From: Nanobdellota archaeon
Lineage (GTDB): Archaea; Nanobdellota; Nanobdellia; Pacearchaeales; GW2011-AR1
Length of the DNA: 32,663 nt
Direction: 5' to 3'
Assembly: GCA_018816335.1 (NCBI GenBank)
Contig: JAHIVP010000031.1
Coordinates: 1-32,663, forward strand
Part shown: positions 15,812-26,242 of the stretch, piece by piece
Layout: each line of letters begins with the position of its first letter
Position numbering within the stretch: position 1 is the first letter of the stretch
Position numbers and translations under genes: made by a program
Notes under the pieces: generated by a model
What the model was told of the DNA's origin: nothing
What the model saw: the letters and a program-made list of their open reading frames with translations, nothing else
Database searches by the model: none

Positions 15812-15920
15812 TGGGGCTGCCCAGATTTGAACTGGGGTTATGAAGTTTTTTGTAGCAAGCAACAATAGTTTTTGTTGCACTTCCCAAACCTCACGTACTA
15901 CCAAACTATACTACAGCCCC
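15812..15920 (-). tRNA. tRNA-Pro (TGG anticodon) with a canonical-position intron
   Basis: The minus strand folds as a complete tRNA. The acceptor GGGGCTG pairs perfectly with CAGCCCC, with discriminator A. The D stem is GTAT/GTAC, the anticodon stem TGAGG/CTTCA with loop TTTGGGA (anticodon TGG, proline), and the T stem CCCAG/CTGGG with loop TTCAAAT. A 36-base intron (about 15847-15882) interrupts the loop between positions 37 and 38, the usual archaeal site, and has its own GCAACA/TGTTGC stem. The mature length is 73 and CCA is not encoded. Tandem copies of its 3' end lie just beyond it. Confidence 0.93.
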
Positions 15921-22236: not shown

Positions 22237-23202
22237 ATGATTCCAAAGAAACTTAAGGACTTGTTAGAAAAACAACATTATAGTATTTTTTGTGGACATT
22301 GTGCTTTGCAAGTTTGTAGATGGTGTAAACATAGTTTGTTAGATGAAGGAGTTTGTTATAAAGAACAATTTTATGGAATTAAATCTCATAAATGTTGTCA
22401 GATTTCTCCTGCTGTAGCTTGGTGTCAAAATAAATGTGTTCATTGTTGGAGGCCAATTGAACTTTCATTAGGAAGTGAGATGAAAGGAAATTTAGCTGAG
22501 CCCAAAGAGATTATATTTAATTCTATACAAGCTCAGAAAAAAAGGCTTACTGGATTTAAGAGTAATAAAAAAATTAATATGGAAAAATGGGAAGAAGCTC
22601 AAGAACCTGATCAGTTTGCAATTTCATTAATTGGAGAGCCATTGATTTATCCTAAGATGATTGAGTTGATTAATGAGTTGAGGAAGCAGAAGAAGAGTAG
22701 TTTTATTGTTACAAATGGTTTAGTTCCTGAAAGATTGAAAGAGATGATTGATAAAAAAGTTTTTCCAACTCAGATTTATATTAGTTTAAATTGTCCAAAT
22801 AAAAAAATGTATGAAGAGTGGCATAAGAGTTGTGAAAAAGATGCTTGGAAAAAGTTTAATGAGTCGTTGGGTTTGTTGAAGGATATTAGAAAAAAAGGAG
22901 GGAGAACTGTTTTGAGAATGACGTTGGTTAGAGATTTGAATATGAATGAGAAGATGATTGATGAATATGTTAAGTTGATTAAGAAAGCCTCTCCGCAGTT
23001 CTTAGAATTAAAAAGTTACATGGCAGTAGGTTACGCAAGGAATAGATTGGGGTATGAGAGAATGCCTTTTCACGAAGAAATAAAAGAGTTTGCTGAGAAA
23101 CTTTCTAAGAAATTAAAGATGAAAGTTTTAGATGAGCATGAGTTTTCTAGGGTTGTTTTGTTGGGGAGGAAGAAGGGGGATATGAAGATTTCTAAGGTTT
23201 AA
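22237..23202 (+). CDS. taw1: tRNA 4-demethylwyosine synthase Taw1 (TYW1)
   Basis: The 321-residue radical-SAM enzyme has the cluster motif CQNKCVHCW (Cys63, Cys67, Cys70), preceded by a cysteine-rich N-terminus (FCGHCALQVCRWCKHS, GVC, HKCCQ) that probably supplies the second cluster. ISLIGEPLIYPKM and FIVTNGLVPERLK are TYW1-like SAM/pyruvate-binding stretches. It makes the tricyclic wyosine precursor at G37 of tRNA-Phe from methylguanosine and pyruvate. It converges with the reverse transcriptase gene, the stops overlapping by 4 bases. Confidence 0.92.
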   Translation: MIPKKLKDLLEKQHYSIFCGHCALQVCRWCKHSLLDEGVCYKEQFYGIKSHKCCQISPAVAWCQNKCVHCWRPIELSLGSEMKGNLAEPKEIIFNSIQAQKKRLTGFKSNKKINMEKWEEAQEPDQFAISLIGEPLIYPKMIELINELRKQKKSSFIVTNGLVPERLKEMIDKKVFPTQIYISLNCPNKKMYEEWHKSCEKDAWKKFNESLGLLKDIRKKGGRTVLRMTLVRDLNMNEKMIDEYVKLIKKASPQFLELKSYMAVGYARNRLGYERMPFHEEIKEFAEKLSKKLKMKVLDEHEFSRVVLLGRKKGDMKISKV

Positions 23203-24248
23203 ATATTAATATGTTTCTTAATTTTATTAGTTAATCTAAAACTATTAGCCCATTTTGCATAAGCTTGCCAGCCTTGAAAGCTTTCTTCTAATTCTTCTCT
23301 ATCATTAGACTTTTTTATTCTTGATAACATTTGTCTAATATTTCTTTGCCTTAATAACTTGAAGTAATAAAAATTTCTGAAACCTACAAAATCTATTCCT
23401 TTTGCTAAGGGAATTATTTTGGATTTGTCTGGATGAAGTTCTAGTTTTAATTCTGCTTTTAGAAATTTATCAATTTTCTTTTTCCATGTTTCAAGTTGTG
23501 ATTTGGAGTTATGTAATAATATAAAATCATCAACATATCGAATATAACATTTTGCTTTTAATGTGTGTTTAACAAAAGAATCTAATTTATTGAGATATAT
23601 GTTTGCAAAGAACTGAGATGTTAAGTTGCCAAGAGGCATTCCTTTATTTATTAATAATTTGTCCCCGTCTCTCTCTGAAATATTATTTAATATTTGTTTT
23701 ATCAACCATATAGCTTTTTCATCTTTTATTTTTCTTTTTATTCTACTTATTAGAATATTGTGGTCTACTTCTTGAAAATAGTGTTTGATATCTGCTTTTA
23801 AACAATAACCATAAACAAAGTTTGTATCATTAAATTTGTTTCTTATTAATTTTCCATTTCCTGAAATTTTGCTCATGAATTTTTTTAGTCTGTCTAAAGC
23901 AAATAAGTTTCCTTTTCCTTTACGATTTGCACAAGAATCATAAATAAAAGTTTTATCAAAAATTGATTCTATAATTCTAACAATTGCGTGATGAATAATT
24001 CTATCTCTGAAATTTGACTTGCTTATTTTACGTGTTTTTGGATCTCGTAAAATAAATGTCTTCAAGGGTTTAGGACAATAAGTTTGATTTTGCAATTCTT
24101 TTTGTAACTGAAATAAATTGCCTATTGTGTCAAATTCAAATTCAATTACATAATCTTTTTGTGTTTTTCCTTTTCTTGCTCTTCTCCAGGCCCTTATTAA
24201 ATTATCAATTGAGACTATCTGCTCATATAAGTTTTTGTGGGATTTCAT
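23199..24248 (-). CDS. DGR reverse transcriptase
   Basis: The 349-residue protein has RT motifs in order: RDRIIHHAIV (81-90), KADIKHYF (151-158, catalytic Asp153), GMPLGNLTSQFFANIY (203-218), YVDD (238-241, catalytic aspartates) and GIDFVGFRN (284-292). GxxLGNLTSQ in the motif B region is the form typical of DGR reverse transcriptases, as opposed to retroviral or group II intron types. The start is 28 bases from the TR, and adenine-specific differences between TR and VRs show that it has acted. No endonuclease or maturase domain is present. It is expected to make error-prone cDNA from TR RNA and mutate adenine positions. Confidence 0.95.
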   Translation of the reverse strand: MKSHKNLYEQIVSIDNLIRAWRRARKGKTQKDYVIEFEFDTIGNLFQLQKELQNQTYCPKPLKTFILRDPKTRKISKSNFRDRIIHHAIVRIIESIFDKTFIYDSCANRKGKGNLFALDRLKKFMSKISGNGKLIRNKFNDTNFVYGYCLKADIKHYFQEVDHNILISRIKRKIKDEKAIWLIKQILNNISERDGDKLLINKGMPLGNLTSQFFANIYLNKLDSFVKHTLKAKCYIRYVDDFILLHNSKSQLETWKKKIDKFLKAELKLELHPDKSKIIPLAKGIDFVGFRNFYYFKLLRQRNIRQMLSRIKKSNDREELEESFQGWQAYAKWANSFRLTNKIKKHINI

Positions 24249-24276
24249 TTTAAAAAAGTCCTAGAGATGAACTATT

Positions 24277-24388
24277 CCGAGCCTAGAAGTCTCGTTTTAT
24301 ATCCGGGCTATAAAATTTCGAGTTCTGAGGATTCCTGTTGCAGTTGAGGTTAGACCTCTCAGCATAAGCGTTAACCCTCGCGGCTCTA
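24277..24388 (-). repeat. DGR template repeat (TR) with internal hairpin insert
   Basis: The core 24317-24388 and the IMH*-like end block 24277-24288 match both variable repeats. On the minus strand the 22 core adenines are the only positions where VR1 or VR2 differ. Read in the target frame, the core gives an Asn-rich peptide (SNLNCNRNPQNS) from AAC/AAT codons, the classic DGR design. The 28 bases at 24289-24316 are absent from both VRs and contain TTTTATA/TATAAAA arms. The end block reads GGAA where the VRs have GGGG, as expected for IMH* versus IMH. Confidence 0.93.
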
Positions 24389-24604
24389 AGTAGCATGTTC
24401 ACCAAAACAGAAAAGTTTCTGTCACACTACAATTTTAATTTTCATAAATAATTACTAATTATCATTGCTGTATTTTACTGGCAAAAAAATAAAAAAATGC
24501 ACTATGAACATACGTGTAGTCCAGATTTTTCTCTCGAATTAAATACTACAAGAGAAAAATTCTCTAGGACAGAAAATTAAGAAAAAATAAATTAATAAAA
24601 TTAA
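24389..24604 (-). ncRNA. Spacer between target 1 and TR, probable 5' part of TR transcript
   Basis: No gene is seen in these 216 bases. There is a perfect hairpin ACAGAAA/TTTCTGT at 24406-24421 next to the TR. A larger one at 24518-24568 has GTCC/GGAC ends and TTTTTCTCT/AGAGAAAAA inner arms. A T-rich run on the minus strand near 24485-24500 may end the target operon. No accessory variability (Avd) gene fits here. That the transcript includes this region is inferred. Confidence 0.4.
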
Positions 24605-25450
24605 TTATTCTGCGGTGTCGTGCGCTTCGCGCACATGACGTACCCCGAGCCTAGAATACGAGCCCTGAGGATACCTGCCGCAGACGAGGAAAGACCCCCC
24701 AGCACAAGCGCCAACCCCCGCGGCTCTATCTTGTCTAGGATGCCAGAAATAAGTATCTCCAGATTTTACACCTTTTCTAGGGAATCCTTGTGCAGTTGAA
24801 TTGGCAACCCAATCTCTTAGATCAATTCCTTTATCCCTCATTAGACAAGTTGTTAGTCTTTGGGAATATCTAGGAACTAGATTTTCTCCATCTGGGGCAT
24901 AATTTTTATTTAATACTAACCCATCATCTCCTTGTGTAAAATCATCTTCATACCATTCTGATCTCCAAGGAGCTCTTACACCTGCTATTTCATCAAATAT
25001 AGCTGATAATTCTGTTCTTGAAACTTTCTTTCCATTTCCATCATAAGCTTTTCCAGATAATAATAATGCAAAAACATCTTTTGCTATTCTGAAATTTTGG
25101 GTTCTTCCCTCTAAAGCAAGATTTAATCTTACAGCTTGTTTTTTATTTATATGTCCAACATAACCTCTACCGTTTTTCTCTGTTGTACTATTTTGTAAAT
25201 TTAATCCTAATGTTTGCCCTGCTGCTTGAACAGCTGAAGTTGCTCCTAATCTATATTTACAAACCAATAAATCAGGGTAGCCATCTCTTCCTTTTTTTGC
25301 TTCTAAAAATAAATAATCAGAAGGGTCTACTTCGAAACCTGCTCTTGCTGGCTCTGTAGGTTTTTGTGTTTCAACTAATCTATAGTCTACTCCAGCAGCA
25401 TCTAATAATCTTAATGCTCTTGGATCTTCTGTATCAAATCTTGGTGTCAT
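24605..25450 (-). CDS. DGR variable protein 1 (target of VR1)
   Basis: This 281-residue, signal-less protein has its variable segment in residues about 241-269 (plus bases 24645-24728). Just before it is GDTYFWHPRQDRAA, and the end resembles the conserved C-type-lectin-like fold of DGR variable proteins (xxSRLGVRHV). A comparable frame GxxFxFxHPRQDxAA occurs in variable protein 2, so the two are paralogues. 16 of 22 template adenines are altered in VR1. The last residues, VREAHDTAE, are encoded by the post-VR hairpin. The fold should display a ligand-binding surface; the ligand is unknown. With no signal peptide, an intracellular or unconventional location is possible. Confidence 0.9.
   Translation of the reverse strand: MTPRFDTEDPRALRLLDAAGVDYRLVETQKPTEPARAGFEVDPSDYLFLEAKKGRDGYPDLLVCKYRLGATSAVQAAGQTLGLNLQNSTTEKNGRGYVGHINKKQAVRLNLALEGRTQNFRIAKDVFALLLSGKAYDGNGKKVSRTELSAIFDEIAGVRAPWRSEWYEDDFTQGDDGLVLNKNYAPDGENLVPRYSQRLTTCLMRDKGIDLRDWVANSTAQGFPRKGVKSGDTYFWHPRQDRAAGVGACAGGSFLVCGRYPQGSYSRLGVRHVREAHDTAE
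24617..24639 (-). repeat. GC hairpin after VR1
   Basis: GTGCGC and GCGCAC (24620-24634) pair around a 3-base loop (GAA on the minus strand), extended by GTC/GAC with a 2-base bulge. It begins 5 bases beyond the VR1 IMH end, inside the target gene. Hairpins or cruciforms in this position promote target recognition in the Bordetella phage DGR; the same role is inferred here. Confidence 0.8.
24645..24728 (-). repeat. DGR variable repeat VR1
   Basis: The 84 bases align to the TR without gaps once the TR's 28-base insert is skipped. There are 16 differences, all at template adenines on the minus strand; every other position in the core matches. The 3' end on the minus strand is an unmutated GC-rich IMH block (TTCTAGGCTCGGGG). 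Confidence 0.95.
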
Positions 25451-25456
25451 TTTTAA

Positions 25457-26242
25457 TTATTTAGTTGGTTTATCATCGGCGCACGCGCCTTCGGCGCAAG
25501 GGAATCCCCCGAGCCTAGAATCCGAGTACTGAGGACTCCTGTAGCAGTCGAGGAGAGACCTCTCAGCACAAGCGTTAACCCTCGCGGCACTATCTTGTCT
25601 TGGATGCAAGAAATAAAAGTTTTTTCCTGCTTCAAAACTATTAACCTTGGATTTTTGTGTTGGTAGTCCTTGAGAATTTAGTGAATCTAAATCTGCCAGT
25701 CCATCTTCAGTTAGACAAGGTTCTAAAGGTTGTCTTGATAAAACTGGTTCTCCTTTGTCATTTAATCCAGCTATTGTAACTAAATCTAAACCTAAGTGTC
25801 CTTCTCCTTTTGGAAATCTTGCATTTAACCAAACCCAATTATTATGATTTAATGTATGGGTATATTGACTTAATCTTTCTCCTTCAATTAAATTTCCTGC
25901 TGCATCATATAAAACTCCTCTTCCTTGTACTGCCAAGTTTACGTTTCTATAGTGGGGCATAAACTGAGCTGGGGTAGGAACAAATTTTCCATCTCTTAAA
26001 ACATTAACAATTGTATCTTCTTGGTTACTTCCATTATATTCTTGAATCATTGAAATTGCTGAATTCGCTGCTAAGTTCTCTATATCTCCTTGTTGCATTA
26101 AAACATAATTTGCTGGATCAAATTTAACTGCTGTCTGAAAAGCATCAACTTGTCTAGGAAAAACATAAACTCTGTTAGGAGTAGCTACAAAAACTTCATT
26201 TGGACCAGGTTCTATTTTTCTTGCTTTAATTTTAACTCCCAT
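25457..26242 (-). CDS. DGR variable protein 2 (target of VR2)
   Basis: The 261-residue, signal-less protein ends 6 bases before variable protein 1 starts, so the two share an operon. The N-terminal 100 residues (MGVKIKARKIEPGPNEVFVA...) differ from those of protein 1. The C-terminal half shares the frame FYFLHPRQDSAARVNACAER before and within the variable segment (about residues 217-245; bases 25509-25592). 9 of 22 template adenines are altered. The tail CAEGACADDKPTK is encoded by the post-VR hairpin. It is probably a C-type-lectin-like binding protein with a different N-terminal module and partner. Confidence 0.9.
   Translation of the reverse strand: MGVKIKARKIEPGPNEVFVATPNRVYVFPRQVDAFQTAVKFDPANYVLMQQGDIENLAANSAISMIQEYNGSNQEDTIVNVLRDGKFVPTPAQFMPHYRNVNLAVQGRGVLYDAAGNLIEGERLSQYTHTLNHNNWVWLNARFPKGEGHLGLDLVTIAGLNDKGEPVLSRQPLEPCLTEDGLADLDSLNSQGLPTQKSKVNSFEAGKNFYFLHPRQDSAARVNACAERSLLDCYRSPQYSDSRLGGFPCAEGACADDKPTK
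25485..25497 (-). repeat. GC hairpin after VR2
   Basis: GCGCC and GGCGC pair around a 3-base loop (GAA on the minus strand), 11 bases beyond VR2 and inside the coding end of target 2. Its sequence differs from the VR1 hairpin, but it has the same type of stem and the same loop, so structure appears conserved rather than sequence. Confidence 0.75.
25509..25592 (-). repeat. DGR variable repeat VR2
   Basis: The 84 bases align with the TR (insert skipped) with 9 substitutions, all at template adenines. The IMH block is identical to that of VR1, TTCTAGGCTCGGGG on the minus strand. It is closer to the template than VR1 is (9 versus 16 changes). Confidence 0.95.

Follow-up and report, generated by a model that had tools for sequence, protein, structure and literature searches.

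A 28-nt TR-only insert as a probable BHB intron spliced from the template RNA of a nanoarchaeal DGR

In a DGR locus of a Nanobdellota archaeon (contig JAHIVP010000031.1), the TR carries 28 nt that both VRs lack, and this insert is very probably a BHB intron of the type known from tRNA and cbf5, which would be spliced out of the template RNA. The locus lies in a stretch of 32,663 nt, referred to below as the window, and comprises the following features.

23199–24248, minus strand: DGR-type reverse transcriptase (RT), 349 aa (PF00078; phrog_1423)
24272–24288, minus strand: putative TR exon 2, the IMH*-like end TTCTAGGCTCGGAATAG (TR/VR alignment; IMH* of the ...GGAAT type)
24288–24290, minus strand: 3′ bulge ACT, with the predicted cut AC^T between 24289 and 24288 (BHB geometry)
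24289–24316, minus strand: 28-nt TR-only insert, composed of A, TTTTATA, GCCCGGA, TATAAAA, CGAG and AC in succession (unique best junction; 8/8 BHB pairs; local fold)
24291–24294, minus strand: 3′ strand CGAG of the BHB central helix, within the putative intron (BHB geometry)
24316–24318, minus strand: 5′ bulge AAA, with the predicted cut AA^A between 24317 and 24316 (cut rule of PMC2738675)
24317–24388, minus strand: putative TR exon 1, the mutable core (aligns to both VRs with A mismatches only)
24319–24322, minus strand: 5′ strand CTCG of the BHB central helix, within exon 1 (pairs with CGAG at 24291–24294)
24385–24537, minus strand: RT-16 RNA (Rfam RF03019), adjoining the TR on its 5′ side (full-length cmscan hit, E 1.1e-11)
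24605–25450, minus strand: target gene 1, 281 aa, with VR1 at its 3′ end (ORF)
24620–24634, minus strand: hairpin GTGCGC-GAA-GCGCAC past VR1, of the GRA-loop type (sequence read directly)
24640–24728, minus strand: VR1, without the insert (TR/VR alignment)
25457–26242, minus strand: target gene 2, 261 aa, with VR2 at its 3′ end (ORF)
25485–25497, minus strand: hairpin GCGCC-GAA-GGCGC past VR2 (sequence read directly)
25504–25592, minus strand: VR2, without the insert (TR/VR alignment)

The window thus holds an RT, TR/VR mismatches that face adenines, an IMH/IMH* pair (ends CGGGGT versus CGGAAT) and a hairpin downstream of the VR, as a DGR does, while TR–VR collinearity, which is usual in DGRs although copying through RNA does not require it, is broken by the 28-nt TR-only insert. 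The best PDB match of the window RT was the 8ub7 series (E 7e-38), annotated there as ‘Reverse transcriptase’ only and presumably the RT of the BPP-1 DGR, with group II RTs behind at 7e-21. RT-16, an RNA motif associated with RTs, is modelled in Rfam without the TR and the intron. Its end coincides with the TR start here and in most relatives; because it lies directly 5′ of the TR both here and in 19 of the 20 relatives tested, intron-bearing or intronless, it appears to be the 5′ portion of the archaeal DGR template RNA, on the same transcript as the TR. With the nanoarchaeal DGRs, as described in the main text of Paul et al., 2015 (PMC4372165), the locus shares the RT, a TR just upstream of it, adenine-specific VR changes, IMH/IMH* of the ..GGGGT/..GGAAT type and a GAA-loop hairpin after each VR, the one past VR1 matching the GRA trinucleotide-loop hairpins reported there. 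In contrast, the window TR is interrupted by the putative BHB intron, and the passages of that text on introns, insertions, hairpins and gaps mention no TR introns.

Read on the minus strand, the TR runs ...CCTCAGAACTCGAA, ATTTTATAGCCCGGATATAAAACGAGAC, TTCTAGGCTCGGAATAG, and both VRs proceed from CTCG[G or T]A at once into TTCTAGGCTCGGGG. When all possible junctions were enumerated, CTCGAA/TTCTAG, with 24289–24316 skipped, gave no non-A mismatch and the lowest mismatch count for either VR, namely 16 and 8, every one of them facing a TR adenine; two neighbouring junction shifts likewise gave no non-A mismatch, but at the cost of one additional A change each. An earlier sequence-only reading of this DNA had described the 28-base insert as present in the TR and absent from both VRs, and had held that skipping it keeps all remaining mismatches on adenines; its coordinates proved exact, and the latter claim was borne out in both VRs.

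The pairings which that reading had described, that is, the arms TTTTATA/TATAAAA around a 7-nt loop with the flanking CTCG/CGAG, AGAA/TTCT and CCT/AGG, were confirmed and together make up the local MFE fold, CCU.AGAA-CUCG-AAA-UUUUAUA-loop-UAUAAAA-CGAG-AC-UUCU-AGG. The local MFE of 24280–24330 on the minus strand was −10.2 kcal/mol, a fold energy that by itself is only suggestive since 10 of 200 shuffles folded equally well, and the hairpin was missing from the global MFE of the 133-nt TR context. In the register set by the VRs, the BHB geometry is complete with 8/8 pairs, which none of 1000 shuffled inserts reached (p<0.001), and has a 4-bp central helix, CTCG/CGAG, between the 3-nt bulges AAA and ACT (in the ViennaRNA drawing the T is paired, leaving a 2-nt 3′ bulge AC). 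In BHB motifs, EndA cleaves each bulge after its second nucleotide, before the third (PMC2738675), and the cuts AA^A and AC^T would yield CTCGAA and TTCTAGG, exactly the VR junction. The 4-bp helix, the 3-nt bulges, this cutting position and an EndA in the host are all shared with the archaeal BHB introns of pre-tRNA, rRNA and cbf5 mRNA (PMC2738675, PMC7714728), whereas the RNA hosting the window intron would be a retroelement template; beyond tRNA and rRNA, PMC7714728 names the cbf5 mRNA intron alone and adds an intron in the HVO_1309 5′UTR. At 15–58 nt, the inserts with BHB geometry lack the conserved core and the hundreds of nt of group I/II self-splicing introns, and no Rfam match was found within the window insert, the sole match, RT-16, lying outside it.

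In the mechanism that we propose, transcription would run from the RT-16 RNA through the TR to the RT, the host tRNA-splicing endonuclease EndA would cut the TR RNA at the two sites AA^A and AC^T, and ligation of the exons would follow, presumably by RtcB; the intronless RNA would then be reverse-transcribed with adenine mutagenesis, and the cDNA would replace the VR. The VRs would never hold the intron because the cDNA would derive from spliced RNA. The loss of the insert, as defined by the VRs, implies that the template is spliced ahead of copying, a splicing that we infer from DNA, and from sequence we likewise infer that EndA and RtcB act on the TR RNA and that this precedes reverse transcription. 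EndA (PF01974) was found in the window’s own genome, where it lies around 41960–42214 of G000:C36, and in 7/7 other intron-bearing genomes (8/8 together), and in 0/7 of the bacterial genomes tested; RtcB (PF01139) was found in the window’s own genome, the one genome tested for it. In that genome, ARAGORN predicted introns in >10 of the 28 tRNA genes, several of which fit the BHB geometry. A tRNA gene with a probable intron also lies in the window itself, at 15812–15920 on the minus strand, where it was missed by the ARAGORN default scan and found by the Rfam tRNA model.

To survey related DGRs, RT relatives were gathered from GTDB genomes and by whole-genome searches, and TR/VR pairs were identified with a script in which TR adenines match anything and TR-only gaps are allowed. 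TR-only inserts proved recurrent, as inserts of at least 13 nt were found in 34 of about 160 distinct TR/VR pairs, a count that includes two probable alignment artefacts (L046 and L232); two further intron-bearing TRs, L081 and L265, were recognised by eye beyond the 34. TRs of Pacearchaeota/Woesearchaeota, the class of the window, usually had a single intron of 18–39 nt at CTCGAA^A, and most Aenigmatarchaeota TRs for which a VR was found carried one to three, often two or three. All VRs checked were without introns, including every one of the two to three VRs in four multi-VR loci, so that an insert inside the VRs of a related locus, which the sequence-only reading had named as counter-evidence, was not encountered. 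One DGR was found on viral contigs, and it is collinear. Among 34 bacterial TR/VR pairs of related RTs, no BHB insert was scored, a 14-nt gap in L355 being left unscored.

Counting L298 and L320 once, as second copies of L031 and L071, 46 of the 54 unique inserts reached at least 7/8 BHB pairs in a VR-compatible register; before removal of duplicates the figure was 51/59, compared with a mean of 1.8 and a maximum of 6 of 59 for shuffled inserts (1000 runs). The eight below this level comprised five at 6/8, one resembling an intron plus a codon indel, and the two probable artefacts L046 and L232, which at 2/8 pairs were rejected as BHB introns. In a register scan of the 46 introns, the mean number of central-helix pairs was 3.78 out of 4 in the register set by the VRs, and about 1 away from the helix diagonal. 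The central helices covary, with 174/184 pairs formed versus 88 with strands permuted, and among the 23 distinct central helices 86/92 pairs were kept versus 39 (maximum 60) when strands were dealt anew, although these shuffle and permutation nulls treat the sequences as unrelated and ignore kinship. The BHB was present in the local MFE at 25 °C for 27/46 introns. Intronless relatives were contiguous over the predicted junction, as in L105, where 38/44 positions are identical to the spliced window TR; rows of this comparison that set Aenigmatarchaeota TRs against the second copies L298 and L320 are to be disregarded. On the RT tree, a quick tree with many open forks in which L298 was wrongly entered as intronless, at least 14 changes of intron state were counted, 5–6 of them forced by supported branches; the precise count varies with this tree, but gain, loss or transfer of the intron is accordingly frequent.

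Three explanations of the missing bases had been offered from the sequence, namely that the RNA is processed, that the RT jumps across the hairpin, or that cDNA priming occurs at the hairpin. The first is supported and can be made specific as BHB splicing of the tRNA type, the VR junction matching the cut pattern of EndA, and the other two are disfavoured. Structured templates can be skipped by RTs, and the insert forms a hairpin whose local fold juxtaposes the exons, but we consider it unlikely that the RT or the cDNA skips the hairpin in reverse transcription, as a deletion without RNA splicing: the junction falls two nt inside each 3-nt bulge and not at the stem base, with the VRs keeping the 5′ strand of the helix and two bulge nt and losing the 3′ strand and two. 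Moreover, equal precision was found over stems of varied length and sequence, TRs with up to three inserts lose each of them precisely, and no such skipping was scored in the 34 bacterial DGR pairs.

The distribution of adenine mutations bears on priming at the hairpin. Downstream of the first intron, 182 mutated adenines versus 3 non-A differences were counted, including those of the Aenigmatarchaeota TRs with two or three introns; in 20 of 30 intron-bearing TRs, a mutated adenine lay downstream of an intron and outside the last 8 nt, and in multi-intron TRs adenine mutations occurred in every exon. Since downstream exons carry adenine mutations too, the exons would be joined before or during copying, and because both flanks of the intron are copied with DGR-type mutagenesis, a spliced RNA template is a better explanation than priming or skipping at the hairpin. 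The window TR has no mutated adenine past the intron, the IMH end aside, and for this locus exon joining therefore rests on the relatives. It is also conceivable that EndA cuts the TR RNA and the exons stay unligated, the RT switching template between fragments or the cDNA being primed at the cut; the EndA geometry is present, and a cut would leave a defined RNA end near IMH*. We regard this as very unlikely, however, given that exact joining across two or three introns and the adenine mutations in middle and last exons (the same 182 versus 3) are simpler with ligated RNA, and that RtcB is encoded in the window’s own genome.

VRs last copied from an older, intact TR, before a recent insertion killed it, would look identical to those observed, and within its own RT clade (13 rows) the window TR is the only one with an intron. 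Such a dead TR is nonetheless highly improbable: inserts of this type, showing BHB geometry and compensatory helices, recur in about 34 TRs, pointing to their maintenance, and at the window locus the RT, the RT-16 RNA, IMH* and both VRs are intact. The TR was found once in the 82%-complete genome, and no second, collinear TR, which would have argued for this explanation and against the sequence-only reading, was found there.

An ordinary in-frame codon indel between TR and VR has a precedent in relatives, in which 3- and 6-nt TR/VR indels occur, and 35 of the 46 introns are multiples of three in length. For the window its probability is negligible, as a length of 28 nt puts the insert out of frame, and its BHB geometry coincides exactly with the junction. 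Whole-codon TR/VR differences of 3 or 6 nt, in alignments otherwise restricted to A, were observed in L005, L007, L018, L025 and L066.

Statistically, the excess of lengths divisible by three (binomial 4e-9, relatedness ignored) was accompanied by a scarcity of stops, with 2 of those 35 introns containing a stop in the VR reading frame versus 15.8 expected after shuffling; the 28-nt window intron is an exception to the multiple-of-three pattern. This in-frame, stop-free excess may mean that unspliced templates are sometimes copied. One reading of the length bias is selection for a harmless outcome of copying an unspliced template, and another is descent from coding sequence. More speculatively, and with some doubt on our part, BHB introns might break TR–VR homology and so shield the master TR from cDNA/DNA recombination; only spliced RNA would then be an efficient template, and rare unspliced copies would stay readable, the introns being mostly in-frame and stop-free.

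Apart from the TR, the RT genes displayed simple-sequence tracts whose position is fixed, immediately preceding the RT motif GMPLGNLTSQ. Of 243 distinct RT sequences, 41 carry poly-G (8 nt or more) or (GA)n (10 nt or more) at this site, for example poly-G of 9–12 in L042, L050 and L054 and (GA)n in L041 and L048; the window has a short GAGAGAGA-C-GGGG there (about 23662–23677, minus strand). In relatives, a frameshift between the two RT halves often accompanies the tract, and what seemed to be an intron in their RT genes was found to be such frame-shifting tracts. The pattern resembles phase variation of the DGR RT. In the bacterial relatives L057 and L069, (CTGTC)n or (GT)n repeats lie ahead of the RT start, which perhaps also switch expression.

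Within the open PMC full texts, no paper linking DGRs with BHB introns was found, and in this literature a TR splicing step appears unreported so far for DGRs, although an earlier mention is possible. The introns may also have hidden such elements, since they split the TR into short exons: Roux et al., 2021 (PMC8144416) set 50 bp as the minimum length of a blastn repeat, a length that many Aenigmatarchaeota TR exons fall short of, and searches for long ungapped repeats could overlook these DGRs. The DGR of Bordetella phage BPP-1 (PMC3240598) shares with the window the RNA intermediate, adenine mutagenesis, IMH and a hairpin after the VR, but its TR and VR are collinear and those of the window are not. 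The archaeal TR introns would provide natural evidence that archaeal DGRs work via a processed RNA. Reportedly, Guo et al. in 2008 engineered the self-splicing td intron into the BPP-1 TR to prove the RNA intermediate, and the archaeal introns would be a natural version of this test. Among BHB introns outside tRNA they would further form a class that is both new and frequent, joining the archaeal tRNA-splicing machinery with targeted protein hypermutation, two systems with no earlier connection in the literature searched.
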